NCBI GenBank assembly: GCA_012728335.1
Contig: JAAYFG010000140.1
Span: forward strand, 1 to 33,362
Direction of reading: 5' to 3'
DNA: 33,362 nt
DNA from: Tissierellia bacterium
GTDB taxonomy: Bacteria > Bacillota > Clostridia > Tissierellales > Peptoniphilaceae
Positions 6,888 to 25,322 of this stretch are shown one piece after another (the stretch's first letter is position 1; each line of letters begins with the position of its first letter). The translations under genes and the position numbers were made by a program. The notes beneath the pieces are model-generated. The model was not told where the DNA came from. It was given only the letters and a program-made list of their open reading frames with translations, and ran no database searches.

Positions 6888-6893
6888 TATAAT
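6888..6893 (+). promoter_or_regulatory. Candidate -10 element for the SLH/beta-helix protein
   Basis: A consensus TATAAT at 6888-6893 lies 65 nt before the GTG start. No good -35 is visible at 16-18 nt upstream, so either the promoter is activator-dependent or this is chance in AT-rich DNA. Confidence 0.35.
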
Positions 6894-6958
6894 TGATTTG
6901 TAATGGGTATATTGCGAATATACATAAAAATAGTTCAAAAAAATATAGGAGGGATAGT

Positions 6959-9793
6959 GTGAAAATAAGAGTAAAAAAAGCTGCTGTTATAGTACTATCT
7001 ATATTATTAATATCTATTGGTTCAATTAGTACTTTAGCAGCAAATAACAATGATGAACTTCACTTGGAATCAACAATAACACTATATAGCGACGAAGTAG
7101 AATCATTAAAAGACGGGGAGAAGAACGTGGAGCCTATGTCAAATGGCGATACATATAATGATGTCTGGTTGCAGGAAAAAATTGATGCTGGAGGGAATAT
7201 TGTATTAGACAAAGATGTGGTATTGGGTAAGACAATCAACTTACCATCAAAAAGCGTAATTATAGATGGAGGAGATAATAAACATAGCATAAAGTTAGCA
7301 GAAAGTTTTAAAGGCAGACATTTTGGTGGTTATCCTAGTGGAAGTAATACGTATACTTTTAAAAATCTAAAAATTGAAGGACATAATAAATCGGCACCTG
7401 GAAATTCTAACAACAATAGAATTATAGGTGGTGGAATTGATATGATGCAGGGAACAGATAAGATGAAGTTTATCTTTGAAGACTTCTTAATTACCGGATG
7501 CCATACTACTTCGCAAGGTGGCGCTATTAATCTTAATAATCCAACGGTTATACTAAAAAATACTATTTTTGAAAATAACTCTGCAACTACAAGTGGTGGA
7601 GCTATTGCAAAAAATGGTGGTGGTAGTATTACTATTAATGGAGGAGAGTTCAGAAATAATAGTGCATATAATGGGCAGGGAGGTGTAATAGCTGGACCGA
7701 AAGCCAAAATATACATTGATGAGTCAACTTTTGAGAAGAATTATGCAAAAGAAAATGGAGGAGCAATCGCACCTAGTGGTAACCATTTTGAAGCACTAGA
7801 AATCAATAATTCGGTTTTTGAGCAAAATAAGTCAGATGCAAATGGTGGAGCTATATATACAAATACACAAATTCCTACTTATGTGTATATAACAAACTGT
7901 GAATTTATAGAAAATAAGGCAGTAGAAGGTGGAGCTGTAAGCCAATTCGATAATGAATCTTCTGGAGTTTATTATAAGGATTGCAGTTTTATTGGCAATA
8001 TTGCATCTAAGATAGGTGGAGCAATTCATGTTTATAACAAAAAATCTCATCAAATATATTTGAATAATATTGATTTTTCTGAAAATAAAGCTGCAAAAGA
8101 TGGTATTTACTGGGAAGTTGAAAATCCAAGAGCTGGTCCAAGTAGTTTGGGACTAGCTGGACAATATAATTTAGTAAAAGGATCTGAAGATACTCAGATA
8201 TTGCCATATGACAAGAGAATTTTAAATATGAAAGGGAAAACATATTCCAAAGCAATTCAAGAAGGCGTTATCTATTCAAATCCATTTAATAATCATGATA
8301 TTGCATATGACACAGAATACACAGTGTATTTTTATAATTCAAACACTGGGGACAATAAATTTGTAAGGTTTGGAAACAATGAAAAAGTGGTTGCACCAGA
8401 TGGATTTGAAAAATTTCCGGGGTTCATATTTAGAGGCTGGAAAGTAGCGTATTATAGTGATCCAAAATTTGCTAACTTAGGATGGATTCCAGAAGATTGG
8501 AATGAAAACATACCTTATATGTTCAAACAAGAAGAACTTACAGGACATGTGTACTTATTACCTACTTGGGAAAAAGCTGCAAGTATAGTTTATTATTTAA
8601 ACGATGGAAGTGATAAGAAGGAATATATTAATTTTGAAAAGAATACTGAGGCAGAAATTGTGTCTTATGAAAATGTGAATAGTACATGGATAGCCCCTGA
8701 TGGAAAGGAATTCGATTGTTGGAATACGAAAGCCGATGGTTCTGGAGAAACATATGAAATAGGCAAAAAGTTCACTGCAACGGAAGATTATTTGGATCTA
8801 TATGCTATTTGGAAAGATGAAATTGAACCTGTAAACGAATATGAAATTAAATACTTTGGAAATGGTAATACTGATGGTAGTGTACCTATAGACAATCATA
8901 AATATGATTTGAATGAAGATGCAACAGTCTTACCAAAGGGAGATTTAATTAAAAGAGACTCTACGTTTACAGGCTGGAATACGAAAGCCGATGGTAGTGG
9001 TAAATCATATAAACCTGGAGATGTATTCAAAATTGAAAATAGCGTGAATCTTTACGCACAATGGAAATACGATGGAGATACTGATTTAGATAAAGACAAA
9101 GACAAAGACAAAGACTATAATATGGATTTTTTAATGTGGAATTGGCATACTGAAAAACCAATTGAAACAGTTATTCACAGAGCATATGTAAATGGATACC
9201 CAGATGGAAGTATTAGACCACAAGGAGAAATAACAAGAGGAGAAGTTGCAGCAATCATAGCAAGACTTCACGCAGATGTTGAAGAAATTGTATATGGAGT
9301 AGAAAATAACTATTCAGATGTAAACTCAACAGATTGGTATTCAAAACATATTTTATATGTAAGGGATAAAGGTTTAATGGAAGGCTATGAAGATGGAACA
9401 TTTAAACCAGAAAATAAAATCACTAGAGCAGAGTACGTAACGGTAGTAGCACGATTTAAAGGTTTAGTAGAGATAGATACAAAATTTGAAGATTCAAAAG
9501 GTCATTGGGCAGAAGGTTATATAGGAGCAGTAAATGAAAAAGGTTGGATAAGTGGATATCCAGATGGAACATTTAAACCAACAGCTAATATAACTAGAGA
9601 AGAAGTAGTAAAGATGACCAATGGAATGCTTGGACGAAGTGTGAAAGCAGAAGGGATTGAAGACTTAAACATAAATAAATTCACAGACTTAGAGTATGGC
9701 ACATGGTCATATTATGAAATGATTGAAGCTAGTACTAGTCATAAGTGCTTAGATAATGATGAACCATTTGAAACGTGGATAGAAATTTTATAA
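6959..9793 (+). CDS. SLH-anchored surface protein with PMP-like beta-helix and InlB-type repeats
   Basis: A secreted 944-aa wall-associated protein. GTG at 6959 was chosen over an upstream in-frame TTG (6893) because GGAGGG sits 5 nt before it and a clean signal peptide follows directly (KIRVKKAA..., cleavage near residue 29, STLAA). Residues ~60-400 form a predicted right-handed beta-helix with at least five GGAI-type turns each preceded by F.NN/N.A motifs, the chlamydial polymorphic-membrane-protein repeat pattern. Residues ~450-705 hold InlB/Listeria-Bacteroides-type repeats (GWNTKADGSG twice). A Lys/Asp linker leads to three SLH repeats (~720-895; GYPDGSIRP..ITRGE, GYEDGTFKP..ITRAE, GYPDGTFKP..ITREE). 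A ~45-residue tail ends the protein. SLH domains usually bind pyruvylated wall polysaccharide. Likely adhesin; ligand unknown. Confidence 0.9.
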   Translation: MKIRVKKAAVIVLSILLISIGSISTLAANNNDELHLESTITLYSDEVESLKDGEKNVEPMSNGDTYNDVWLQEKIDAGGNIVLDKDVVLGKTINLPSKSVIIDGGDNKHSIKLAESFKGRHFGGYPSGSNTYTFKNLKIEGHNKSAPGNSNNNRIIGGGIDMMQGTDKMKFIFEDFLITGCHTTSQGGAINLNNPTVILKNTIFENNSATTSGGAIAKNGGGSITINGGEFRNNSAYNGQGGVIAGPKAKIYIDESTFEKNYAKENGGAIAPSGNHFEALEINNSVFEQNKSDANGGAIYTNTQIPTYVYITNCEFIENKAVEGGAVSQFDNESSGVYYKDCSFIGNIASKIGGAIHVYNKKSHQIYLNNIDFSENKAAKDGIYWEVENPRAGPSSLGLAGQYNLVKGSEDTQILPYDKRILNMKGKTYSKAIQEGVIYSNPFNNHDIAYDTEYTVYFYNSNTGDNKFVRFGNNEKVVAPDGFEKFPGFIFRGWKVAYYSDPKFANLGWIPEDWNENIPYMFKQEELTGHVYLLPTWEKAASIVYYLNDGSDKKEYINFEKNTEAEIVSYENVNSTWIAPDGKEFDCWNTKADGSGETYEIGKKFTATEDYLDLYAIWKDEIEPVNEYEIKYFGNGNTDGSVPIDNHKYDLNEDATVLPKGDLIKRDSTFTGWNTKADGSGKSYKPGDVFKIENSVNLYAQWKYDGDTDLDKDKDKDKDYNMDFLMWNWHTEKPIETVIHRAYVNGYPDGSIRPQGEITRGEVAAIIARLHADVEEIVYGVENNYSDVNSTDWYSKHILYVRDKGLMEGYEDGTFKPENKITRAEYVTVVARFKGLVEIDTKFEDSKGHWAEGYIGAVNEKGWISGYPDGTFKPTANITREEVVKMTNGMLGRSVKAEGIEDLNINKFTDLEYGTWSYYEMIEASTSHKCLDNDEPFETWIEIL
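9089..9115 (+). repeat. Hexanucleotide tandem repeat GAYAAA x4 in the SLH linker
   Basis: Four GATAAA/GACAAA units plus a GAC encode the alternating Asp-Lys linker before the SLH domains. Unit-length slippage would keep the frame and change only linker length. Confidence 0.8.
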
Positions 9794-10580: not shown

Positions 10581-11291
10581 CTAAATGTCAAAGAAAAATT
10601 TTCTAAATTCATCTTGAGCATGTTTTTTAAGACCTTTGCTGATGGGAACCCTTTGTTTATTAGATAGTATGAAGTCATTATTATCTAAGTCTACTACATG
10701 CAATAGATTTACAATATAACTTCTATGACATGAAATAAATGGATAACCACCTAGTTGATCCTTAAGGTTTCCAATAGTCATATTAGGGGAGAAATCTCCA
10801 TGAGAGGTATAAATTATTGTGTTGTGACTCATGGCTTCTAGACAATAGATATCTTTTAGACATATCTTTATTAATTCTCTATTTACCATGATTTCAATAG
10901 TAGTTCCATAAAGGTTGATTTTCTCCTTACATTTATTCATAGCTTTATTGAATTCGCTTTTTGTAACTGGTTTGACTATATAGTAATTGGCATCAACCTG
11001 ATAACTGGAAACTGCATGTTCTAAGCTTATTGTATTGAATATAATGGCAACATCTGTATCAGTTTTTCTAATTTTTTTGGCTACATCCATCCCAGTTATA
11101 CCTGATTTATCCATGTATATGTCTAAAAAAACGATTTGATATAGATTAGGCTTAAAGTTCTTTAGAAAATCTTCTCCATTGAAATATACATCTATATCCA
11201 CATTGAGCCTATTTACCTTTGCGTATTCCTCAATGAGTTTATATATATGCTCACTGTCTGTTTTCAAATCTTCACAAATTGCTATTTTCAT
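10581..11291 (-). CDS. LytTR-family response regulator
   Basis: A 236-aa two-component regulator: receiver domain (1-120) and LytTR DNA-binding domain (~132-232). Receiver residues are intact: E7/D8 acidic pair, phosphoacceptor D57 (VFLDIYM), T87, K107 (VKPVT). The LytTR domain has the typical FISCHRSYIVNL block. ATG at 11291 is used because AAAGGA stands about 10 nt before it; a TTG nine bases earlier touches the RBS. It follows the kinase gene after one base. LytTR regulators typically control adhesins, bacteriocins, competence or quorum systems and bind direct repeats; the surface proteins nearby are likely targets (inference). Confidence 0.93.
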   Translation of the reverse strand: MKIAICEDLKTDSEHIYKLIEEYAKVNRLNVDIDVYFNGEDFLKNFKPNLYQIVFLDIYMDKSGITGMDVAKKIRKTDTDVAIIFNTISLEHAVSSYQVDANYYIVKPVTKSEFNKAMNKCKEKINLYGTTIEIMVNRELIKICLKDIYCLEAMSHNTIIYTSHGDFSPNMTIGNLKDQLGGYPFISCHRSYIVNLLHVVDLDNNDFILSNKQRVPISKGLKKHAQDEFRKFFFDI

Positions 11292-11292
11292 C

Positions 11293-13239
11293 TTACTCAA
11301 TCCTTTCTTTCAAAGGAAGTAATACTTCGCTGTGAAATAAATTGCCATCTGACGAATAAAAAACTGCTTGGCCATTATAGAATTTGCTTATTGAAATGAC
11401 TGAAGATAGTCCTATACCAGCTCGTCCATATTCTTTTCGTGACAAAAAGGCGCCGTTTTGATAATTTGATATTCCATCAAATACATTTACAACAGATACT
11501 CCAAAATGATTAATTTTACTGAAAATATTCACCTCTATACTACGATTTTTCTTAGGGATTACCATAGATGCTTCTATGGCATTTTCCAGTATATTATTAA
11601 TAATGATACTTAAATCCACATCCTTTATGGGCAGTTCTCTAGGAATTGAGACTTTAACAATGAAAGGTATATCTTCTTGTTGTGCTCGAGTGGCATATAA
11701 GCGTAATATCATATCGATTATGAAATGGTCGCAATAGGATACTTGTGAGCTAGAGCTAACAGTATCAGATATTGATACGATATAATCTCTTAGTTTTTCT
11801 GTATTTTCCAATTGTGATAGTTCATTTATTATGGATAAATGATGTCTAAAATCATGTCTATTGACCCTTAACTCCTCTTCTTTTTCTAAAAGCATAGGAT
11901 AATACGTTTTTTGCACATCTAAAATATTTGAAACATTTTTTATGCCCTCTTCAAGTTTGATTCTATATCTCAGTTCATTACCAATCTCTATTATAAATAT
12001 ACTATTTAATAGGACTATGTATATTAATCCTGATATCTCCAAAAACCAACCATATCTAATTGGTTCGAATATCGGAAGAAATCTGTCCATAAATAATGAC
12101 ATCGATAAAATGATTGCTCCTATGAGCATAGTTTTTGAGTGAACGTGCTCATAAGAAGATGCTAACAAACTAGATGCAAATAAGAAGATTGCAGAAATCA
12201 ATATAAAAAGTTCAAGTAAAAAAGAGTAAAATAACATGATGTCTAGATTATTCTTCATTAAAAAGTGTAAAGAAGCACCACAAATACATATAAATACTCC
12301 AAATGACTTAATCATTTTTGTAAGTATATTGTCTAGATTTAGTAATTGAGATTGTATCATTATTATAATCAATAGAAATGCTGGGAAGGAAACTAGTTCC
12401 AAAGCATATCCACTAATTGGTATAGACCAAATAGAATGTAGTACTGGAAATGCTATAAATATTGTGAAAAACATACATAATATAAACAGATACATTAACA
12501 AAATACTATCGTTTCGATAGTTTCTTCTGAAAACACCATATATTATGAGATTAATAAATCCTATTCCAAGTGACAGTATTATTGCTGCAAACCTTATGCC
12601 AAAGGTAGTGTTAATATTCTTATCGACAATTTCTGATAAACCAAAAGTAGGTGGATAAACCATCCCACTATAAAAATGATCATAGTCAGAAACGGCTATA
12701 AGAATTTCAACTTTATCCAATCCATTAACAGTGTATTTAAAAGTTCTGGTGTCCGATTCATAATGATCTTTATTAGGATTTCCCATTTGTTTTACTAATT
12801 CTCCATTAATGTATAGTTTATATGCACTGTATATTTCAGGAAGTTCCAAAGTAAAATTGTCTTTGTTTTCAGGAAGAATTATATTCATCCTATATGTTGC
12901 AGAACCATGTGGATTTCTATTGGGAGAATTTTTTTCAAAACCCAAATACTGTCCAATAAACACATATTCATCAGGGATTAGGATATTGTCGTCGAAATCC
13001 TTTGGCTCCAATAATCTATTTCTATATATTTCCCAATCGTCTATTAGATAAGTGTATCCGTATTCATTGATGGCATATTTAGGAAATACTAATAAGCCAT
13101 TATTTCCTTGTGGTCCACCATGAGTATATTTATTGTCATGTTTGTACATCATAAAAAACAATATAGAAGAACAAACGGCGATTAGAAGTATTAATAAGCT
13201 TAGGGTAATATTAATTGAGCTTTTCATGAGCTTTTTCAT
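11293..13239 (-). CDS. GHKL sensor histidine kinase with extracellular domain and 7TM region
   Basis: A 648-aa membrane kinase. Order: one N-terminal membrane helix (~8-30), an extracytoplasmic domain (~38-212) resembling the jelly-roll 7TMR-DISM sensing module, a block of about seven membrane helices (~214-420), a short coiled region, then a LytS/AgrC-type kinase core with phospho-acceptor H462 (RHDFRHHLSI) and GHKL ATP-binding motifs NILENAIEAS and GRAGIGLSSV. ATG at 13239 has AAGGTG at proper distance; a GTG at 13248 would overlap the upstream stop as GTGA but lacks an RBS. It is partner of the LytTR regulator immediately downstream. The outer domain suggests a carbohydrate or peptide ligand; unknown. 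Confidence 0.9.
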   Translation of the reverse strand: MKKLMKSSINITLSLLILLIAVCSSILFFMMYKHDNKYTHGGPQGNNGLLVFPKYAINEYGYTYLIDDWEIYRNRLLEPKDFDDNILIPDEYVFIGQYLGFEKNSPNRNPHGSATYRMNIILPENKDNFTLELPEIYSAYKLYINGELVKQMGNPNKDHYESDTRTFKYTVNGLDKVEILIAVSDYDHFYSGMVYPPTFGLSEIVDKNINTTFGIRFAAIILSLGIGFINLIIYGVFRRNYRNDSILLMYLFILCMFFTIFIAFPVLHSIWSIPISGYALELVSFPAFLLIIIMIQSQLLNLDNILTKMIKSFGVFICICGASLHFLMKNNLDIMLFYSFLLELFILISAIFLFASSLLASSYEHVHSKTMLIGAIILSMSLFMDRFLPIFEPIRYGWFLEISGLIYIVLLNSIFIIEIGNELRYRIKLEEGIKNVSNILDVQKTYYPMLLEKEEELRVNRHDFRHHLSIINELSQLENTEKLRDYIVSISDTVSSSSQVSYCDHFIIDMILRLYATRAQQEDIPFIVKVSIPRELPIKDVDLSIIINNILENAIEASMVIPKKNRSIEVNIFSKINHFGVSVVNVFDGISNYQNGAFLSRKEYGRAGIGLSSVISISKFYNGQAVFYSSDGNLFHSEVLLPLKERIE

Positions 13240-13244
13240 TTCAA

Positions 13245-15257
13245 TCACCTTTTACGTGAAAATACTAAATAAATGGATACTCCAATAACTCCAAGTGCAC
13301 ACATGAATACTATTGTTAAAACAGAGTTACGTTGTGAGTTATTCTCATCATTATCATTTTCCACATCTGTTGTTTCCATTTCCTTATTATCCAAACTGTC
13401 TTTATTAACGCTATATTTATAAACTTCATTGTTATTAATTGCATTCAAATTTTGATCTGCTATAGCTTCGTTATTGTCAGATTCATAAAATTGATTTTCA
13501 ATAATTAAGCTATCACCATTTTTTATCAAAAGCTCAGGTTCAGATTCGTTCACTTTTTCTTTATCATTGATTTTAATAACAGATTGAATGGTTTTGTCAG
13601 TTTTCTTAATGATAACAGATAATTTGTCTTTTGCGCCCAATGATAAGGAACGTAAATAATCAGTAGGTATACTAATTGACAAGTTATTTTTGATATAAGT
13701 TATGTATTGATCAGATGCTAGAAGTCTATTTGACAAATTATCACCAAAATCATTGAATATTATTTCTTCATCTCTATTTTCAGAATAATCATCGTCATCT
13801 CTTTCATTAGGACCTTTTGGATGTTCAGGATCATTTTTGTCATCAGGATTTGGATCTGGTTTGGTCTGTTCCTCCCTGTCTATTCCAGGAGGTATTCCTT
13901 CTTGAAAGTCGAATTCTAATTCACCATCAGATTTATATATAACTATATAGTTGGAATATTTATTTCCGTCATATTTAATTGCTAGGGAAGTTATGCTTTC
14001 TTCTTCCAAATTTGAAGTATTAATCAATATGGAATTCCCTTCCATAGAGAATATATTTAAATGAGAAACCTCTTCATAATTGATCCAGTCCTCTACTAAT
14101 CCATTTAAAGTACACATTATTTGAGGGTTATTTGCATCGTATAGCCAAGTGATTTTATAGATTTCATCATTGACACGACTAAGTACATCTAAATATATCG
14201 CATCACCAGGTATTATATGAAGACTAGGAAGAAATAAACCGGGCTTCATTATAAAATCAGATGGCAAATCTAAATGAATTAGAGTGTAAGAAGACACATG
14301 ATTAAGATAAAAATAATCAAATAATATTTCATAATTCCAAATAATCTTATCTCCATATTCAGTATAAAGATAGATTTCATTACCATAATTTAAGTCGTTC
14401 ATCAAATAGTTTTCTAGAGATTCTCTAGTTATTCCAACTGGAACGATTGGATTGTAATTAGTTACATGTGGGATTTCATAATCAACAATAACAATTTGAC
14501 TCGTTTCAGTATCATCATATACATATACGTATCGTTCTACAGTTATCGGCTCATCTAAAAATTTATAGCCTTCAGGTAATAATACTTCACCAATTATTTT
14601 ATGGCGACCTGCTCCATACTCATTAGCATTAAAGTCCTCGTATTTCCACTCCACATTACAGACTAATTCATTATTATCATATGAAGCAGTAGCTTTATCG
14701 TCTAAATTAAGAGATTCAGAGTTTAAGCCAGTTTTTAATAAAACCGAATCACTGAAATGTAGCTCAACAGATTCTATAATAATATCTTCATTTGGATTGG
14801 TTTGTTCTTCTTTCGTTATGACTACAGGTATCTTAATAATTGGGATTTCTCCTAGGAATATATATTTATCATCGAGCGTGATATCTCCCAAAATATAAGT
14901 AGTTCCAATATTTGAATTATCAAAATCCTCATATCTCCATGTAATTTCAAATTCTACAGTATCAGAAATAGTGTGTCCTAAAATTATTTTAGGCAGTTTT
15001 AAGTTTGAAACACTTTCCCCAATATGTAGTAAAAGCTTGTCATGTTCAGTAGGAAGTTCAAACTCATATATTTCTATGGTTTCAGATTCCTCTATGTCAT
15101 CAAAACTTTCTGCATCTTCTAATTTTTCTAGTTCAGTATCTACTTGAACACTATTAAGATCATTTATTAAGTTTAAATCTTCGGCATATGTGTTTGACAA
15201 TGTGGTCATTATAAATATTAGGAGAACATATGCGAATGGAAAAAATCTTTTTTTCAT
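13245..15257 (-). CDS. Membrane-anchored Ig-like surface protein, first gene of the TCS operon
   Basis: A 670-aa exported protein I cannot assign to a named family. Signal peptide at 1-26 (MKKRFFPFAYVLLIF...NTYA); at least two related Ig-like modules of ~60-70 aa with a W(K/R)YEDF...G...GE(V/I) core (near ~120 and ~205 aa); a Pro/Asp/Lys-rich low-complexity stretch (~460-490); then a single C-terminal membrane helix with an FSRKR tail. There is no LPxTG, so it stays in the membrane rather than being sortase-linked. ATG at 15257 has GGAG 9 nt upstream; a closer ATG at 15266 abuts the RBS. It ends 5 nt before the kinase, so it may present a signal to, or be a co-sensor with, the kinase. Confidence 0.8.
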   Translation of the reverse strand: MKKRFFPFAYVLLIFIMTTLSNTYAEDLNLINDLNSVQVDTELEKLEDAESFDDIEESETIEIYEFELPTEHDKLLLHIGESVSNLKLPKIILGHTISDTVEFEITWRYEDFDNSNIGTTYILGDITLDDKYIFLGEIPIIKIPVVITKEEQTNPNEDIIIESVELHFSDSVLLKTGLNSESLNLDDKATASYDNNELVCNVEWKYEDFNANEYGAGRHKIIGEVLLPEGYKFLDEPITVERYVYVYDDTETSQIVIVDYEIPHVTNYNPIVPVGITRESLENYLMNDLNYGNEIYLYTEYGDKIIWNYEILFDYFYLNHVSSYTLIHLDLPSDFIMKPGLFLPSLHIIPGDAIYLDVLSRVNDEIYKITWLYDANNPQIMCTLNGLVEDWINYEEVSHLNIFSMEGNSILINTSNLEEESITSLAIKYDGNKYSNYIVIYKSDGELEFDFQEGIPPGIDREEQTKPDPNPDDKNDPEHPKGPNERDDDDYSENRDEEIIFNDFGDNLSNRLLASDQYITYIKNNLSISIPTDYLRSLSLGAKDKLSVIIKKTDKTIQSVIKINDKEKVNESEPELLIKNGDSLIIENQFYESDNNEAIADQNLNAINNNEVYKYSVNKDSLDNKEMETTDVENDNDENNSQRNSVLTIVFMCALGVIGVSIYLVFSRKR

Positions 15258-15375
15258 AGTAATCATCTCCAGTTAATCTGATTTTATCATAGCATTATTA
15301 TCTTTACAAAGTTTAAGTGGAAAATAATTAACTAATAATGTAAAAAACTATATACTTTCACTATTATAAAATAAA

Positions 15376-15454
15376 ATTTCTATAAAATACAGCGAAAAAG
15401 ATAGCCGTTCGTGAAGTTTCAAGGCATTTCATTCGCTTTCTATAGAAATGAAAT
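15376..15454. promoter_or_regulatory. Long inverted-repeat structure in the divergent surface-operon intergenic region
   Basis: Nested arms: ATTTCTATA (15376-15384) with TATAGAAAT (15441-15449), AGCGAA (15391-15396) with TTCGCT (15432-15437), GCC (15404-15406) with GGC (15423-15425). A competing hairpin pairs ATTTCATT (15426-15433) with AATGAAAT (15447-15454). It could be a structured leader RNA for either operon or an operator; the transcript it belongs to is not resolved. The rest of 15258-15531 is AT-rich with no gene. Confidence 0.5.
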
Positions 15455-15470
15455 AATTGAGTTGATAAAC

Positions 15471-15499
15471 TTGGGTTAAATAAACTAGATACTATGATA
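15471..15499 (+). promoter_or_regulatory. Candidate promoter for the receiver-like pair and adhesin
   Basis: TTGGGT (15471-15476), 17-nt spacer, TATGAT (15494-15499), 33 nt before the ATG at 15532. The -35 is only half consensus. If this is the start, the upstream hairpin would lie outside the + transcript. Confidence 0.4.
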
Positions 15500-15531
15500 A
15501 AGCATTAATTTAAAGTTCAGGAGGTGAAAAA

Positions 15532-15891
15532 ATGAACATAGCAATTATTGGCGGCTCCGAAGCCAAACGTGCCGAACTGGAGCAAATGATTTTGTCAAAC
15601 TCTAATAGAAGTAAAGCCTACAGCATAGTTTGCTATGAATTTATAGAAGATGAACAAATATATGTTAATAGTAAAGTTTCCGTAGCATTCATTTTTGTTG
15701 AGAATAGTAAGATTCTATACAGAATAAAAGAATTTATTGATGGAAATGACAAGGTATCTATTGTAGTGGTAAGTAATCGTCCTGAATATGCATTAGAAAG
15801 TATAAGACTAAATATTAAATACTATCTGCTGTATCCCTTAGAGCAATATGAAGTTTTAGAAGCACTAAAAAGAAGCGAGGTGGTTCTATGA
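15532..15891 (+). CDS. Stand-alone degenerate receiver-like protein A
   Basis: A 119-aa cytosolic protein, AGGAGGTG RBS. The pattern of alternating hydrophobic strands and helices, and the block VVVSNRPEYALESIRLNIKYYLLYPLEQYEVLEAL (given here as landmarks ~82-116), match the second half of a LytTR-type receiver domain. However the acidic pair is replaced (IIGGSEA), the phosphoacceptor position reads FIFVEN instead of FLDIEM, and the conserved Lys before Pro is Tyr (LLYPL). There is no output domain. It probably cannot be phosphorylated in the usual way. It overlaps the next gene by 4 nt (ATGA). Likely a regulatory adaptor or pseudo-receiver; function unknown. Confidence 0.7.
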   Translation: MNIAIIGGSEAKRAELEQMILSNSNRSKAYSIVCYEFIEDEQIYVNSKVSVAFIFVENSKILYRIKEFIDGNDKVSIVVVSNRPEYALESIRLNIKYYLLYPLEQYEVLEALKRSEVVL

Positions 15892-16277
15892 GCTTTTCAA
15901 TATTGGTTTTTGACGAATCAAAAGTGGCAGCAATGCGTTTAATCGATGAAATAGAAGACATTGTGAAGAATATAAATTACGATATTACTTTCTACATATA
16001 TAAACCAAATGATGTTTTCACAAAAGAGACTATTGAGAAAGGTAAATTAATTTTTTTTACTATTGAGAATATGTATGATTTAGAAGCTGCCAGAAAATTT
16101 GCAATATTTCATAATGACTCTACTTTGATCATAGTGAGTAATACGGAAGAGTTTGGAACTTGGTCATGGGAATTAGGTGCAGATTATTACTTAGTCAAAC
16201 CCATAGAGCGAAAAGAATTACTTAAAGCAATCGTGAAAAGTAGTTCTATTGAAAGAAAAAGATTAGCAGGTATGTAG
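15888..16277 (+). CDS. Stand-alone degenerate receiver-like protein B
   Basis: A 129-aa homologue-type partner of the preceding gene, translationally coupled by an ATGA overlap. It keeps D8/E9 (LVFDESK) and the Lys of LVKPIERKELLKAI, so the receiver fold is clearer than in protein A, but the phosphoacceptor site reads LIFFTIENM, i.e. Thr where Asp is expected. No output domain. The C-terminus is basic (SIERKRLAGM). With protein A it may form a phosphorylation-independent pair, perhaps antagonising or titrating the LytTR regulator encoded divergently (inference). It lies 129 nt before the giant adhesin gene. Confidence 0.72.
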   Translation: MSFSILVFDESKVAAMRLIDEIEDIVKNINYDITFYIYKPNDVFTKETIEKGKLIFFTIENMYDLEAARKFAIFHNDSTLIIVSNTEEFGTWSWELGADYYLVKPIERKELLKAIVKSSSIERKRLAGM

Positions 16278-16406
16278 TTTAGAGGCAATTAACTATTATA
16301 AATTCGGCAAGATTCATATATTTATAGAGTTATTATTCATTATATTGATACTGGGAAGTATTTAGATTGTGAATTGTAATAAATGATTATTTAAAAGGAG
16401 GAAATC

Positions 16407-19400
16407 ATGAAATCTAATAGGAGAATCATATCTTTGCTATTGGCAGTAATAGTATTTATGATTACTTTCCCAAGTGGAATTTTTGCTCAAGACAATTTGC
16501 CAAATAGTAATATAAATGAGGACACTACAATCATCGAAAATTTAGAACCAGTTGGAGAAAATCCTGATGAAGAAGAACCTGAAACAGATAAAACTGGTGA
16601 AATTGATGAAAATGGTGAAGGCTCAGAAATAACTGGAGAAGGTGAAGACAAAAGTAATGATGAGGAGCCAATAATAAATGAAGATGATTTGCAAAGAGTG
16701 TTTGAAGAACGAAAAAATCAAATTTTTGCAGAGATAAACGCTCTTTATGATGAGATTAAAGAGTTCGTAAAAGGAAATGATGAAAAATTTGAGATTATAC
16801 AAAATGCACAAAATGAATTTAATGATAGCTTTATTAATATAAGTTCAATCGAAGAACTAGATCAATTATATGAAATACAATTATTAAAGATTGGCGAGCT
16901 AAAGGATAGTTTATCAAATATAAACGACGAATTAGCTGAGTATAAAAAGAATATTATAGAAGAGATTACTATCAAATATGAAGATATGCTAAAATTGAAT
17001 GTTGACAATGAAGAAATTAAGATAATACAGGATTATATTGAAATTTTTACAGTAAGTATTGAAATGGCAGCTAGCATGGAAGAAATAGATGATCTGTATA
17101 CTTCTGAATTAAATATGTTTAAAATGATAGAAGGTATAGATACTGAACTAGGAGAAAACCCTGACAATCTGCCTGGACCTATTGAGATTGAGGCACCATT
17201 TATAGAGAGTGGTTTTATAGATGAAAATTTAAAAAGCATGAGTAGAATGTCTAAGTATTCAGGGGAATTAGAACCTGGTGAAGTTAAGATGACTAAGACA
17301 GCGACTCCGGTTGAAGGAATGGTAAATACTTGGGATATCGAAATTAGGGTAGAAGGACAAAATATTAGTTCTTCATCAGATATAGTTCTTCTAATTGACA
17401 TATCTCAAAGTATGGAAGGGTCAAAGTTAAAAGCAGCTACTAAAGCTGCAGTGGAATTTGCTAATCAACTATTAAATGAAGAAAACATTGATACGAGAAT
17501 CGCAGTAGTATCGTTTTCTGATAAAATCAAAATAGAGCAAGGATTAACAAAGGATAAACAAAAAGTTTTAAATGCTATTAAAGGACTTAGTGTAAATGGA
17601 GGGACTTTTACTCAGGCTGGTATAAATCAAGCAGTTTCAATCTTAAAAGATTCAAATGCTAAGCTGAAAAATATTGTACTTCTTTCAGATGGGGTACCAA
17701 CTTATAGCTATGGCATAAAAAATCCGAATAATTATACATATAAATATGATTCTTCACTTTTTGCAGATTATTATGAAACAACAGAAAATATTCCTAAAGA
17801 AGAATATATATATAATAGGACTGTTGGGGATGGTACAGGTCTTAGGACACGTTATGAAGGGATATTTAATCGAAAATATTATAATCATGGAAATAGTGCT
17901 ATAGCAGAAGCTAACTTTGCAAAAAACGATGGTAATACTATATATACAATTTCATTGGAATCAGACAATGATGGGAAAAGAATACTAAATAAAATTGCAT
18001 CTCAAAACAAATCATTTACTGGTAGCTCATCTGATTTATCCAGAATATTTAATGAAATAGGTGGAGATATAATTTTAGCAGCAAAAGAAGCAAAAGTTTC
18101 AGATCCGATGGGACAAGGCTTCACTGTTTTTGGGAAAGCATCAGATATAAGTGTAAGCACTGGGAAATATAGTTATGACTCTGATAAAAAACATATTGAT
18201 TGGATTATAGGAACACTATCAGAACCTATATTGCCTGGTTCAGATATAAAATTTGCGACAATGAAATACAGAGTTGAAATTGATGATGATATTTTAAATG
18301 CTACACCATCTGATGGTAAAAATTACTTAACCAATGGTGAAACAGTTTTAGAATATACTGATAATAATAATAATAGAAAGAGAATATACGCAGATGTTCC
18401 AAGCGCTGATCCAATAATTTTAGCTCTTGAGAAAAAGCTTATAAACAGTTTAGGTTTTGAAATAAAAGCTAAAGATATGGGAAGTGATGAGAGATTTTTT
18501 GATATCCATGTAACAAGTGATCAAGGATATGATCATACTTATAAATTAAATGCAGGACAAAAGAGTGTAATGACCAATTTGAGATTAGAAGATACTTATA
18601 CGGTTATAGAAGATAAATTTAGTGGTAACACCACTCACTCTGCAAGTGATTATGAAATTTCCTATAATATCTATGGAAAAGACACTGATAAATTTATAAT
18701 AAATCAAGGTGATTCTGATACTCCAGTAATAGTAACAAATAGAGAATTACCATTAGGTGAACTTACTGTAACGAAGTTATTTAATCCAGGGGTTACTAAG
18801 ACAAAAAGAAGTTTAAGTGCACCAGAATTTAAATTTGAATTAATAGGTCCAAAAAAAGCTGATGGCACTAGTTCATTAGATGGAATTAAAGGGCTGGCTT
18901 TAGAAAATGGGAAATATGTATTTATATTAAAAGCTGGAGAATCAAAGACATTTAAAAATTTACCATATGCAGAATATCAAGTAGTTGAAATTGAAACAAA
19001 TGGCTTTATACCAAGCTATTCAACTTCAGAAGGAAAAATCACTTTAAAGATTGATCAAAAAGTTGGAGAGGTTATGGTAACTAATACTCCTAAAGATGAT
19101 GATAAAACTATAGAAGTAAAAGTAGAAAAAGTATGGGATGGTGGTTTAGAGACAAATCCAAGTGCAATAATAGAGCTATGGAGAAAAGGTTTAGAAAAAG
19201 ACGGTAAAACTCCAATAGATGAAAGTGTTGAAAACTTTACAGCAACCAAAGTTAAGACACTAGAAACATTTAAAAATCTAGCTAAGTTTGATCCAAGTGG
19301 TAGAGAATTTGAATACTATGTAAAAGAGACAAAGGTTCCAACAAACTATACAGTAGATTACAGTGGAGACCAAGCTACTGGCTTTAAAGTATACAACACA

Positions 19401-21638
19401 TACAAATCATCACATACAGAATTAGAAGTAACAAAAATTTGGACTGGTGACGAAAAAGTTACTAGACCAGTTATGAATGTAGAGTTGTGGAGAAAAGTTG
19501 GAGATAAAGAGGAAAAAGTTGAAGGGGCAGAGGTAAAAGAATTTACTGAAACCAACACAGTAGCAAAGTGGACAGGATTAGAGAAGACCGATGCAGCTGG
19601 AAAAGAGTACGAATACTTTGCCAAAGAAGACTTTAAAGACAAAACAGATATAAACAATGAAAACTGGATACTAGGTAAATATGATAAAGACAACAAATCA
19701 TTTACCAATAGTGTAAAAGCACCAACAGGAAAATTGACAATAACGAAAATTTTAGAAAATGAGCCGAGTTCAATAGCTAGACGTTCACTATTAAATAGTG
19801 AACCACTGTTGTTCAAAGTAAAAGTTACTGGACATAACTTTGAAGGTACAGTAGAACTAAAAGCAGGTCAGAGCTTTACAATTGAAGGACTGTACAGCGG
19901 AGAATATAAAGTAGAAGAAGTAGAAGCATATGGATACGCTCCAGTTTATACTCCTGAGGGTGGAAAAATAGAAGTAAGAGCAGATAAAACTTCACAAGTG
20001 ACAATAACCAATACAAATACAGGTGGAGGAGAAACCAATATAGAAGTAACGGTAGAAAAAGTATGGGAAGGTGGCTTAGAGACAAATCCAAGTACAACAA
20101 TAGAGCTATGGAGAAAAGGTGTAGACTTAGCAGATAAAGAGATAGATGAAAGTGTTGGCGAATTCATAGCAACAAAAGATAAGACATCAGAAATATTTAA
20201 AAATCTAGCTAAGAATGACCCAAGCGGTAGAGCATTTGAATATTATGTAAAAGAACCAACAGTACCAGATAATTACAAAGCAAGTATAGAAGGCTTTACA
20301 GTAACCAACACCTACCTATGTCGTGAAGATTTAATAGGTACTAAGACTTGGGAACATGGAGATAATCCTGAAGAAAATCATCCAGAAGAAATAACAGTGA
20401 TTTTAAAAGCTAATGGAACAAAGGTAGATAGTAAGAAAGTAAGAAGAGAAAATGATTGGATGTATGAATTTGAAGGACAACCTATATCTAATGAATATGG
20501 GAAAATCGTCTACACGATAGATGAGGAAGACATTCCAAATTATGAAAAGGAAATACTAGGATTGGATATAAAGAATATATTTAAAAATCCTGAGGTTAAA
20601 CTTACAAATAAGAAAACAGACAATTTAAATGGATCAAAAGTTAGAATAGGAGACAGCTTCAAGTATTATATCACTATTAAAAATGAAGGTGAAAATACTG
20701 TTAAAGATATTAAAGTTACTGATAGAGTTCCAAGACAATTAGATATATTAAGTGTTGAACAAAAAGATTCTATTATAAGTGGTCAAACTATTGAATACAC
20801 AGTTCCAACGATTAAAGCTGGAGAGACTTTCACTCTTACAATAGAAGTCGAAGTAAACTCAAAAGCAAGAGATAAGGACATAATAAAGAATGTGGCTGTA
20901 GTAAACGATAAAGACATTCCAAGTAGAGAACTAGAAGTAGACGATTGGCATATAATATGGTGGGATTATTTGGACAGAGCTAATCACTATTCATATTTGG
21001 TAGGCTATCCAGATGGAACTGTAAGACCAGAAGCCGAAATAACTAGGGGAGAAGTTGCTACTATATTTTATAGAATGATGACTGAAGACGCAAGAGATAG
21101 GTATAGAAGTAGAGAAAATAACTACTCAGATGTTAATAGAACTGACTGGTATAATATAGCGATATCCACATTGAGCAATGCAGGAGCGCTTGAGGGTTAT
21201 CCAGATGGATCATTCAGACCAGAAAGAAGTATTACCAGAGGAGAATTTGCTGCAATGGCATCAAGATTTTTATCTGAAAAAGGCTCTTTAACTGATAATA
21301 AATTTACAGATATAAGAGGCAACCGGGCTGAAAAAGCAATAGAAGAATTAGCATCACATGGATTAATAAATGGTTATCCAGATGGATCATTTAGACCGAA
21401 TAAGGAAATTACCAGAGCAGAAGCAGTTACTCTTGTGAATTCAATTTTGGATAGGACGCCACATAAGGATAAATTAATCGATGGTATGGAAACTTGGCCA
21501 GACAATAATAGAGGTGCTTGGTACTATGCTCAAATCCAAGAAGCAACAAATTCACATGAGTATGAAAGAGCAAACACCACTACTAGAGAAACATGGACTA
21601 AGTTATTACCAAATAAGGATTGGACATTATTAGAATGA
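16407..21638 (+). CDS. Giant SLH-anchored vWFA/Cna-B adhesin (pilus-tip-like)
   Basis: A 1743-aa exported protein. Order: signal peptide (1-28); acidic Glu-rich stretch (~30-95); helical, coiled-coil-like region (~95-250); vWFA domain (~325-550) with MIDAS motif DISQS at 331-335; a beta-rich stalk domain (~555-665); then about six Cna-B-type modules (~665-1305), several opening with the LTVTK or VEKVWDG signature; a further Cna-B-like module (~1306-1395); a DUF11-like module (~1400-1510); three SLH repeats (~1515-1690, each with GYPDG..RP..ITR); and a 50-aa tail. The vWFA plus Cna-B layout is that of pilus tip adhesins such as SpaC/RrgA, where intramolecular isopeptide bonds stiffen the stalk, but LPxTG is absent and SLH replaces it. 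RBS AAGGAGG. Probably a host or matrix-binding adhesin. Confidence 0.92.
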   Translation: MKSNRRIISLLLAVIVFMITFPSGIFAQDNLPNSNINEDTTIIENLEPVGENPDEEEPETDKTGEIDENGEGSEITGEGEDKSNDEEPIINEDDLQRVFEERKNQIFAEINALYDEIKEFVKGNDEKFEIIQNAQNEFNDSFINISSIEELDQLYEIQLLKIGELKDSLSNINDELAEYKKNIIEEITIKYEDMLKLNVDNEEIKIIQDYIEIFTVSIEMAASMEEIDDLYTSELNMFKMIEGIDTELGENPDNLPGPIEIEAPFIESGFIDENLKSMSRMSKYSGELEPGEVKMTKTATPVEGMVNTWDIEIRVEGQNISSSSDIVLLIDISQSMEGSKLKAATKAAVEFANQLLNEENIDTRIAVVSFSDKIKIEQGLTKDKQKVLNAIKGLSVNGGTFTQAGINQAVSILKDSNAKLKNIVLLSDGVPTYSYGIKNPNNYTYKYDSSLFADYYETTENIPKEEYIYNRTVGDGTGLRTRYEGIFNRKYYNHGNSAIAEANFAKNDGNTIYTISLESDNDGKRILNKIASQNKSFTGSSSDLSRIFNEIGGDIILAAKEAKVSDPMGQGFTVFGKASDISVSTGKYSYDSDKKHIDWIIGTLSEPILPGSDIKFATMKYRVEIDDDILNATPSDGKNYLTNGETVLEYTDNNNNRKRIYADVPSADPIILALEKKLINSLGFEIKAKDMGSDERFFDIHVTSDQGYDHTYKLNAGQKSVMTNLRLEDTYTVIEDKFSGNTTHSASDYEISYNIYGKDTDKFIINQGDSDTPVIVTNRELPLGELTVTKLFNPGVTKTKRSLSAPEFKFELIGPKKADGTSSLDGIKGLALENGKYVFILKAGESKTFKNLPYAEYQVVEIETNGFIPSYSTSEGKITLKIDQKVGEVMVTNTPKDDDKTIEVKVEKVWDGGLETNPSAIIELWRKGLEKDGKTPIDESVENFTATKVKTLETFKNLAKFDPSGREFEYYVKETKVPTNYTVDYSGDQATGFKVYNTYKSSHTELEVTKIWTGDEKVTRPVMNVELWRKVGDKEEKVEGAEVKEFTETNTVAKWTGLEKTDAAGKEYEYFAKEDFKDKTDINNENWILGKYDKDNKSFTNSVKAPTGKLTITKILENEPSSIARRSLLNSEPLLFKVKVTGHNFEGTVELKAGQSFTIEGLYSGEYKVEEVEAYGYAPVYTPEGGKIEVRADKTSQVTITNTNTGGGETNIEVTVEKVWEGGLETNPSTTIELWRKGVDLADKEIDESVGEFIATKDKTSEIFKNLAKNDPSGRAFEYYVKEPTVPDNYKASIEGFTVTNTYLCREDLIGTKTWEHGDNPEENHPEEITVILKANGTKVDSKKVRRENDWMYEFEGQPISNEYGKIVYTIDEEDIPNYEKEILGLDIKNIFKNPEVKLTNKKTDNLNGSKVRIGDSFKYYITIKNEGENTVKDIKVTDRVPRQLDILSVEQKDSIISGQTIEYTVPTIKAGETFTLTIEVEVNSKARDKDIIKNVAVVNDKDIPSRELEVDDWHIIWWDYLDRANHYSYLVGYPDGTVRPEAEITRGEVATIFYRMMTEDARDRYRSRENNYSDVNRTDWYNIAISTLSNAGALEGYPDGSFRPERSITRGEFAAMASRFLSEKGSLTDNKFTDIRGNRAEKAIEELASHGLINGYPDGSFRPNKEITRAEAVTLVNSILDRTPHKDKLIDGMETWPDNNRGAWYYAQIQEATNSHEYERANTTTRETWTKLLPNKDWTLLE
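19111..19190 (+). repeat. Duplicated Cna-B module DNA, copy 1
   Basis: An 80-bp segment in the adhesin gene that matches 20041-20120 at 74 of 80 positions; shorter matches continue downstream. It encodes the start of a Cna-B module (VEKVWDGGLETNPS...IELWRKG). Confidence 0.85.
20041..20120 (+). repeat. Duplicated Cna-B module DNA, copy 2
   Basis: Second copy of the repeat at 19111-19190, offset by exactly 930 bp (310 codons), so recombination between the copies would delete or duplicate modules in frame. Confidence 0.85.
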
Positions 21639-22353: not shown

Positions 22354-22469
22354 TTTAACGCCTTTTTTCTATGGTATTATTATAGATTATTTTAGAGAAA
22401 AATGAAAGGGAATCAGATTATTATTGAAAATTAGATATAATGGGTATAATACACGAATGGAGGAATGCT

Positions 22470-23762
22470 ATGAAAGACAATGATAAAAGGAATTTACTAA
22501 TAGATTATTTCAAAGACAATGAAAAAACAAGTTCAAATGTGAAATTAGGACCGGAATTTGAACATATTATAGTAGATAGAGAAACTTATGATTCAGTATC
22601 ATATTATGGAGAAAACGGAGTTAATGCCATATTTAAAAAATTGGTTAAAAATGGATGGAAACCCGAATATGAAGGAGATAATATCCTTGCGCTTAGCAAA
22701 GATGGAATGTTTGTGACCACAGAACCTGGTGGTCAATTTGAATTTAGCTGTACTCAACAAACGAATGTATCGGAAATAGATTGTATTTACAATAAGTTCT
22801 TCGAAGAATTATTACCTATTTTAGACGAGTACAATTATGACATTCTTGGAATTGGATACCATCCTAAGACGAAAATAAATGAAATAAGACTATTACCAAA
22901 ATTTAGATATGATTCAATGTTTGACTATTTTAAAAATCATGGAACTATGGGACATAATATGATGAAGGGAACGGCTGCTCTTCAGATTTCAATAGATTTT
23001 ATCAATGAAGAAGACTATATTAAAAAGTCACTAGTTACCAGTGTTCTTTCAAATGCATTTTATTCTCTAATGGAGAATGTTTTTGTATTTGAGGGAGAGA
23101 TTACTGATGCCCATAATATGCGCGCTAAAATTTGGGAAAATACAGATTCTGATCGTTCAGGGCTTATTAAAGCTGTCTTTAAAGATGATTTTTCCTATAG
23201 GGCATATGCAGACTATTTATTGAACACTAAGTCTGTTTTTGGATATGTGGATGGGAAATTTGAGTATACTGGTGAAAAACTGATTAAAGATTTGATTAAC
23301 GAAAATTCTACAGTAGAAGAAATAGAGCATTTAATGACAATGGTGTTTCCGGATATTAGAACTAAGAAGTTTTTAGAAATAAGAGTTGCTGATGCTGTTC
23401 CTTATCCTCTAAATATGGCCTATTTTGCTTTGATAAAGGGACTTTTATATAGCGAGGATAATTTAAACGCTCTTTATGAAAAATTTAAACACATTAGCTA
23501 TGATTATATGATAAAATCAAGAAATGAAATGTTTGAAAAGGGACAAGATACCGAATTTGCTGGTCAGACCCTATATGAATTACAAATGGATTTACTTGAA
23601 ATGGCTAAGAATGGATTAGATGAAAATGAAGCTAGTTATTTAAAATCCTTGGAAGAAATGTTAAATAGAAAGACTAATCCATATGGAATAAGTAAGGCAA
23701 ATTACAATGGAAATATAAAAGATGCTGTATCTTGGACAAAAATTGATTTGGGGAGGAAATAA
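22470..23762 (+). CDS. Glutamate-cysteine ligase, GCS2 (plant/EgtA-like) family
   Basis: A 430-aa enzyme predicted to form gamma-glutamylcysteine from Glu, Cys and ATP. Motifs typical of the GCS2 family: LGPEFEHIIVD near 27, TEPGGQFEFSC near 85-95, MMKGTAALQISIDF (~165-180) and FLEIRVADAVPYPLNMAYF near 305-325. ATG at 22470 has TGGAGGA 5 nt upstream; an upstream in-frame ATG (22440) lies among TATAAT-like promoter sequences (22436-22450) and is less likely. It is followed immediately by an ATP-grasp ligase gene, so the pair likely makes a gamma-glutamyl thiol such as glutathione. It is unlike the GshF bifunctional enzyme common in Gram-positives. Confidence 0.85.
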   Translation: MKDNDKRNLLIDYFKDNEKTSSNVKLGPEFEHIIVDRETYDSVSYYGENGVNAIFKKLVKNGWKPEYEGDNILALSKDGMFVTTEPGGQFEFSCTQQTNVSEIDCIYNKFFEELLPILDEYNYDILGIGYHPKTKINEIRLLPKFRYDSMFDYFKNHGTMGHNMMKGTAALQISIDFINEEDYIKKSLVTSVLSNAFYSLMENVFVFEGEITDAHNMRAKIWENTDSDRSGLIKAVFKDDFSYRAYADYLLNTKSVFGYVDGKFEYTGEKLIKDLINENSTVEEIEHLMTMVFPDIRTKKFLEIRVADAVPYPLNMAYFALIKGLLYSEDNLNALYEKFKHISYDYMIKSRNEMFEKGQDTEFAGQTLYELQMDLLEMAKNGLDENEASYLKSLEEMLNRKTNPYGISKANYNGNIKDAVSWTKIDLGRK

Positions 23763-25322
23763 ATGCATAGCTAGAATATCATAAATGAGTATATAGAATT
23801 AATTAAGTCTAATCCTGAAGAATACTATCAGGATTACTTAATTGCAAAAGATAAAATTAAGAATTCCACTGCTTATTATGCTGGGAAGCCTGTACCTTTT
23901 GAATATCAACCTTTTTTTGTTGATAATATAGACTTAGAGAATTTCAAGTATATCACTGATACTATGATGAGTATTGGTAAGAAAGCGGTAGCAGAATATA
24001 AGAAGAATCCAGAATACAGAAAACTGTTTGATTTTCCAGACTTTATTGAAGAAATGATTCTTGTAGATAACGGATATGGTGTAGAAATCCCAATGGCTCG
24101 TTTCGATATATTCTATAACGGAGCTGATGATTTTCAATTCTGTGAAATAAATACTGACGGTTCATCTGCGATGAATGAAGACAATGTTATTGCTGAGATG
24201 ATGTTACAGATGAAGTCAATTAAAGATATGAAAAAAGACTATCAGTTTAGTTATTTTGAACTATTTGATTCTTGGGTTGCTGAGTCTTTGGAAATTTATA
24301 AGAAATACGATCCGACCAACAGGACTCCTAATGTTGCTATTTTAGACTTTAATGAAAGCATTACGGAAAATGAGTTTGTAAAGTTTAAGGAAGCTTATGA
24401 AAGAGTTGGATTGAATTGTGAAATAGTAGATCCTAGAGAATTGAAATACACTGATGGGAAACTTTATTTTGGTGATTTCAAGATAGACATGATTTACAGA
24501 AGACTTGTAACTTATGAATTAATAGAGAAAAAAGACCAAGCAGAAGAATTTATCAAAGCTTATTTGGATGGTGCTGTTTGTACGATTGGTTCAATAGAAA
24601 GCCAGATAATTCATAATAAGATATTCTTTAAGATAATGCATGATGAGGAAACTAAAGTCTTATTATCGCCTGAAGAAGTGGAATTCATTGAAAAACACGT
24701 TCCTTTTACGGGACTTTTCGGTGGAGATGAATCTGTATTTGAAGAAGTGAAACAAAATAGAGAAAAGTACATTCTAAAACCTACTGATAAAAATGCTGGT
24801 CAAGGCGTATTTGAAGGTCAATCTTTAAGCCAAGAGGAATGGGAGCATAGACTTGAAGAAAGTTTCAATAACGATTATTTATACCAAGAGTTTATCCCTC
24901 ATAAAGTAGTTTCTACAGTTCATTTCGATGAAAATGGTGAAGTGTCTGTTAGAGAACTCGGAAATATGGCAGGTCTTTTTATGTACAATGAAAAACTTGC
25001 AGGGCTATATGTAAGATTAGGTAGTAAACCTATTATTGCAGGAATTGTTGAGTCTTTTACTTCTCCAGGAATTTTAGCTGTTAGAAGAAATATGGACGAT
25101 ATACTTCCAAGGATTAACGAATTGGCAAATAAGAAGAAAACTGCTGATTTAGATGAAGCTGAAACAGAGGAACTAGATAAACTAAGAAAAGAGTATATTT
25201 TACGATTTAGAGCTGGAATGAAGAACACATTATTAAATGTGAAAGTTGTAGATGAAGAAGGAAATGATGTAACGGCATTAAAACTTAAAAAGTTGCATCA
25301 CGAAAAATTGAAGGATATTTAA
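23763..25322 (+). CDS. Glutathionylspermidine-synthase-like ATP-grasp ligase, with in-frame TAG at codon 4
   Basis: A ~519-codon frame for a GSP-synthase-type (circularly permuted ATP-grasp) C-N ligase. Landmarks: PVPFEYQPFFVDN in the N-terminal part, FQFCEINTDGSSAMNED, YRRLVTYEL, nucleotide-binding YILKPTDKNAGQGVFEG and YLYQEFIPHKVVSTV. ATG 23763 has a perfect RBS (GGGAGG, 6-nt spacing), but codon 4 (23772-23774) is TAG; the 63 codons between it and the next in-frame ATG (23964) read as conserved family sequence, and 23964 has no RBS. TAG is an ordinary stop elsewhere in the window, so recoding is unlikely; nonsense mutation (e.g. CAG to TAG), base error, or rare start usage remain. It probably acts on gamma-glutamylcysteine made by the preceding enzyme. 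It overlaps the CDF gene by one base. Confidence 0.78.

Follow-up and report, generated by a model that had tools for sequence, protein, structure and literature searches.

Bacterial LytTR/GHKL systems such as AgrC-AgrA, LytS-LytR, and BtsS-BtsR encode a many-transmembrane kinase of the GHKL or LytS type together with a LytTR response regulator in one operon. The locus described here has the same pairing, but it adds a large extracytoplasmic domain on the kinase, a dedicated Ig-like transmembrane partner, and pseudo-receivers encoded on the divergent strand. The 7TMR-DISM receptors consist of an extracytoplasmic domain, a multi-transmembrane core, and a signaling domain. The likeness of our kinase to these receptors is architectural only, and a search of its sensor region for Pfam 7TMR-DISM domains returned none at E≤0.01. 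A second point of comparison is provided by the binding-protein co-receptor systems (PMC11113362). In XylFII-LytS and other solute-binding-protein/kinase pairs, the gene next to that of the kinase encodes a surface-exposed partner whose role is to present or gate the signal. The locus resembles these pairs in its layout, but an Ig-like protein that spans the membrane once takes the place of the solute-binding protein, and no solute-binding-type match was found for it or for the relatives tested. CmrRST of Clostridioides difficile also has an atypical receiver genetically tied to a normal kinase/regulator pair, and CmrT is proposed to form a heterodimer with CmrR that stabilizes the active regulator (PMC12548384). 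CmrT is an OmpR-type regulator encoded in the same operon, whereas the receivers described here stand alone, have no output domain, and lie on the divergent strand. We found no description of the combined Ig-like protein, kinase, LytTR regulator, and pseudo-receiver set in the open-access literature, in agreement with the first-pass annotation, although absence there is weak evidence. None of the parts is new in kind; what is apparently new is the combination, a dedicated Ig-like co-receptor together with output-linked pseudo-receivers.

The window is a 33,362-nucleotide stretch of DNA from a Tissierellia bacterium of the Peptoniphilaceae. ORF mapping and Pfam searches identified six genes at the locus, all intact, in the arrangement described earlier (Table 1). 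The gene set, strands, and order given by the first-pass annotation were reproduced. The minus-strand operon runs from the Ig-like protein through the kinase to the LytTR regulator, and consecutive genes overlap by 4 and 8 bases. On the plus strand, the two pseudo-receiver ORFs (PR1 and PR2) overlap by 4 bases, and the giant secreted-protein gene follows. The length of the divergent region depends on the start codon of the Ig-like protein: it is 265 nt from the first Met, and the 274 nt reported at first pass applies if translation starts at the fourth residue, which is also Met. The giant protein has a helical N-terminal region, and Pfam assigns to it a VWA domain, a GBS104-like Ig domain, four Cna_B domains, a DUF11 domain, and three SLH domains. 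Related SLH proteins occur elsewhere in the same genome and in the family. Contamination is an unlikely cause of the arrangement, because the giant shares 61–68% identity in its SLH region with other proteins encoded in this assembly. Elsewhere in the window, a gene for a glutamate-cysteine ligase family 2 protein (22440–23762) is closely followed by one for a glutathionylspermidine-synthase-like ATP-grasp protein (23964–25322) that carries a DUF896 domain at its C terminus. The two may be paired thiol or peptide ligases, with an unusual fusion.

Table 1 Features of the locus, with positions in the window
Feature	Position	Strand	Size and evidence
LytTR response regulator, phospho-Asp present	10581-11300	-	239 aa; Pfam Response_reg + LytTR
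GHKL sensor kinase, extracytoplasmic N-terminal domain + multi-TM region	11293-13248	-	651 aa; SPOB_a + HATPase_c_5
Ig-like surface protein, proposed co-receptor	13245-15266	-	673 aa; 16-homologue profile, alignment A8, internal repeat
Divergent intergenic control region	15267-15531	.	265 nt; ORF boundaries
Pseudo-receiver 1 (PR1)	15532-15891	+	119 aa; alignment, AF2, Foldseek
Pseudo-receiver 2 (PR2)	15888-16277	+	129 aa; Response_reg E=0.0014 (below cut-off), RR-only profile 41 bits
Gap, PR2 to adhesin gene	16278-16406	.	ORF boundaries
Giant secreted adhesin-like protein	16407-21638	+	1743 aa; Pfam

The kinase, called a 7TM kinase in the first-pass annotation, contains a SPOB_a domain and a GHKL ATPase domain (HATPase_c_5; PF14501, above cut-off), and its H, N, and G boxes are intact. 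Its N-terminal region matched no Pfam family and no solved structure. The kinases were also compared to curated NCBI models, and the matches were generic and all below cut-off. The regulator retains the acid pair, Asp60, Thr, and Lys110. A regulator with receiver and LytTR domains (PF00072 and PF04397, both above cut-off) beside a GHKL kinase with intact boxes places the locus among the LytTR two-component systems. This regulator would control the divergent operon. The control regions were scanned for LytTR direct-repeat pairs, and none scored above the shuffled background; the sequence is AT-rich and the consensus is weak.

The full set occurs only in the window among 130 Peptoniphilaceae genomes. 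Single-protein searches with the Ig-like protein found no match elsewhere in the family genomes or in the genome contigs, and the Ig-like family profile detected, beyond the window copy, weak partial matches only (best E=3e-9) in the 130 genomes. The other Peptoniphilaceae genomes of this sample yielded no stand-alone pseudo-receivers. Anaerosphaera multitolerans encodes a related kinase (37% identical) and response regulator (48% identical) in an operon divergent from a secreted protein, without the Ig-like protein or the pseudo-receivers. The similarity of that secreted protein to the N-terminal region of the window adhesin was too weak to claim (E=0.18). The window also encodes, at 6893–9793, an SLH protein of 966 aa whose repeats are of the Chlamydia-PMP-like and Listeria-Bacteroides types, and a relative of this protein (43% over 362 aa) adjoins the A. 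multitolerans kinase/regulator operon.

A kinase scan of the genome contigs identified L132, a Lachnospiraceae MAG. There, an operon of overlapping genes encodes the regulator, a membrane-anchored protein laid out like the Ig-like one, and the kinase, and it stands head to head with the gene for a secreted protein of 1523 aa. The full-length kinases of L132 and G200 are 31% and 28% identical to the window kinase. The search query was an alignment (A6) that covers the first 430 residues of the kinases and so avoids the common ATPase domain. At the thresholds used, it matched 26 of 397 genomes of the L132 family and 12 of 398 genomes drawn from the phylum, window included. The neighborhoods of the matching kinases were fetched by kinase similarity alone, with context disregarded, and the Ig-like relatives were reached through the kinase search only. 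The resulting clade has 23 members: the window, A. multitolerans, 19 Lachnospiraceae loci, and two loci from other families. In the tree, the 23 kinases form one supported clade. More distant kinases (L182–L188, L190, and L207–L213) are outside this tally, as is L180, which ends at a contig edge. Beyond the Peptoniphilaceae, Lachnospiraceae genomes carry the set again, and one further family has the trio. L206 comes from a third family. The synteny in relatives on which the first-pass annotation had staked its proposal fails in the 130 family genomes but holds in Lachnospiraceae and, for the trio, in the further family. Because the parts recur together in other bacterial families, the cassette is very likely a real sensing system rather than a chance grouping of genes.

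The Ig-like protein has a signal peptide, Ig-like repeats, an acidic/Pro linker, a membrane-proximal domain, and a C-terminal transmembrane segment with an RKR sequence. As to its label, which dates from the first-pass annotation, the window copy has no Pfam match above cut-off, but it carries a significant internal repeat, and two members of its family match Big_4 above the cut-off of that model. The members tested against curated NCBI models had no match, and a structure prediction with a pLDDT of 31 was set aside as evidence. A profile of 16 Lachnospiraceae homologs that excluded the window recovered the window protein at E=3.2e-21, compared to ≤3.7 bits for 200 shuffles and 0.1 bits for the window adhesin. 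The L206 and L189 proteins, likewise held out, were recovered at E=1e-21 and 7e-37, and the Ig-like proteins of the clade are linked by all-against-all BLASTP with E-values down to 0. These sequence comparisons indicate that the homology among the Ig-like proteins of the kinase-clade loci is real. In the family, a nearly invariant GDRDGGD...Q..P motif (DxDGxxD, calcium-loop-like; alignment A8) separates the Ig-like part from the disordered linker, and the motif is degenerate in the window copy (residues 456–470).

A homolog of the Ig-like protein adjoins the kinase in 20 of the 23 loci, and the Ig-like genes end no more than about 80 bases from the kinase start, save one fused and one split copy. 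The fused copy, in L164, joins the Ig-like protein and the kinase in frame in a 1328-aa ORF. At the junction, a short basic linker (NKRK) connects the C-terminal transmembrane segment of the Ig-like part to the first one of the kinase, a topology that fits a membrane complex. Thus, a dedicated extracytoplasmic partner is co-encoded with the kinase across species, as expected of a three-component system. The SURF-HK-RR gene order is common to the window and its tree neighbor L169. The Ig-like protein is absent from A. multitolerans, G200, and L181, and these absences read best as loss because the three members are scattered in the tree. The linkage and the fusion lend strong support to the earlier suggestion that the Ig-like protein is a co-receptor. 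At the level of sequence, the pairing of the Ig-like protein with the kinase as a receptor is well supported, and the L164 fusion is the strongest evidence that the two would constitute one receptor.

The two small plus-strand ORFs were scored against a profile of 19 other response regulators. Both are receivers beyond chance (41 and 39 bits compared to ≤8.9 bits for 1000 shuffles). The AF2 model of PR1 has a pLDDT of 86, and its best solved Foldseek matches include the receivers of the LytTR-type regulators MrkE, ComE, and LytR. In the alignment, PR1 lacks the acid pair, the phospho-Asp, and the Lys and keeps only the Ser among the active-site residues; PR2 keeps the acid pair, Ser, and Lys and has its phospho-Asp replaced. 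The fold search and the alignment identify both as pseudo-receivers, that is, receiver folds without phosphotransfer residues. Because the phospho-Asp is absent in both, the alignment indicates that the usual route of phosphorylation is closed to PR1 and PR2 alike.

Stand-alone pseudo-receivers hold the first divergent position in six of the 23 loci, two each in the window and L166 and one each in L170, L171, L172, and L175. The arrangement of pseudo-receivers facing a regulator, first noted in the window, therefore recurs. The phospho-Asp is missing from all eight stand-alone pseudo-receivers and kept in 20 of 20 aligned response regulators. The L166 pair mirrors that of the window, with a first pseudo-receiver that lacks the Lys and a second that has it. 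A 125-aa ORF that faces the operon in G200 (L108) was rejected as a pseudo-receiver, having no receiver match. Five Lachnospiraceae pseudo-receivers form a supported group in the pseudo-receiver tree (98/96), and all eight may or may not share a single origin (AU p=0.37, long branches). A second full-length regulator, its Asp intact, occupies the place of the pseudo-receivers at L178:4662-5357 and L179:3815-4555, possibly the ancestral state.

L166 repeats the whole set. Its regulator, Ig-like protein, and kinase are divergent from two pseudo-receivers and a giant SLH protein (2254 aa, three SLH domains), and the genes for the latter three abut or overlap, as if co-translated. Across the clade, the divergent partners vary and include SLH or choline-binding giants, a CotH/VTC cluster, a GGDEF protein, a propeller-HD receptor (L169), or nothing. 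Large secreted or wall-bound proteins are divergent in eight loci: the window, L108, L132, L165, L166, L171, L176, and L206. The L170 pseudo-receiver precedes a gene cluster that includes VTC and CotH proteins, and clusters of this type have been reported as accessory to the Pel polysaccharide loci of Gram-positive bacteria (PMC7112168). At L172:2838-4948, the pseudo-receiver is followed by a dCache-HAMP-GGDEF diguanylate cyclase that faces the same receptor operon, a possible link to c-di-GMP. No gene follows the L175 pseudo-receiver on its strand. An adhesin is not the constant output, since a diguanylate cyclase follows the pseudo-receiver in L172 and nothing does in L175. These data define a constant core, the three-gene receptor and regulator unit, and a variable divergent side with mostly surface or biofilm-type output.

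The model that we consider the most probable, with moderate confidence, is a co-receptor-assisted LytTR two-component system that controls the divergent surface operon and receives feedback from the pseudo-receivers that lead it. The single-pass Ig-like protein, linked and in one case fused to the kinase, would form one surface receptor with the extracytoplasmic domain of the kinase, bind a surface ligand, and gate the kinase. The kinase probably phosphorylates the LytTR regulator, because the residues required are intact and the operon is shared. The regulator would then act on the divergent control region and switch the facing surface-protein operon, here that of the VWA/Cna_B/SLH giant. As the first genes of the output operon, the pseudo-receivers would rise with the output, and they could bind the kinase or the receiver of the regulator without need of phosphorylation. 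Their action would most simply be a damping or insulating feedback by competition, and its sign could be either way. Four observations weigh against the model: the LytTR site scan was at chance level, only 6 of the 23 loci have pseudo-receivers, three loci lack the Ig-like protein, and the divergent output is not always an adhesin.

The opposite sign is the strongest of the alternatives, and we consider it somewhat unlikely. The pseudo-receivers would be positive, phosphorylation-independent partners that stabilize the active regulator as a heterodimer and give positive feedback. There is precedent for an atypical receiver working with a normal two-component system (PMC12548384, PMC12632262), and PR2 with its acid pair, Ser, and Lys speaks for such a role; PR1, which retains the Ser alone, speaks against it, and so does the fact that the pseudo-receivers, unlike CmrT, have no DNA-binding domain. 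A less probable alternative is that the kinase trio does serve as a receptor module but has its regulon elsewhere, and that the divergent surface genes and pseudo-receivers are neighbors that come and go rather than the main targets. The variation of the divergent partner and the chance-level LytTR site scan are consistent with this idea; large secreted proteins placed head to head in eight loci across families and the repeated occupation of the first divergent position by receiver-type genes speak against it. That the pseudo-receivers are functionless, decaying remnants of a second response regulator, as the full-length regulators at the same place in L178 and L179 might suggest, is very unlikely given their maintained open frames and receiver fold, the tandem pair in L166, and the supported Lachnospiraceae group, which argues that they have lasted as pseudo-receivers.

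Under the feedback model, a membrane-anchored Ig-like co-receptor would gate a LytTR two-component system, and feedback would be built into the output operon in the form of its own phospho-dead receivers. We advance tentatively, at a little short of an even chance, that this is an undescribed class of surface sensing that crosses bacterial families. The switching and role of pseudo-receivers is an open question in the field (PMC12632262). Here they recur in a compact gene neighborhood that also encodes a kinase and a regulator, along with the likely co-receptor and output, which makes the question directly testable, and the tandem pair occurs in two distant families. The analysis also joins into one system a group of uncharacterized Lachnospiraceae surface proteins and kinases that, where tested, have no specific curated family names. 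This system may control what gut bacteria display at their surface.
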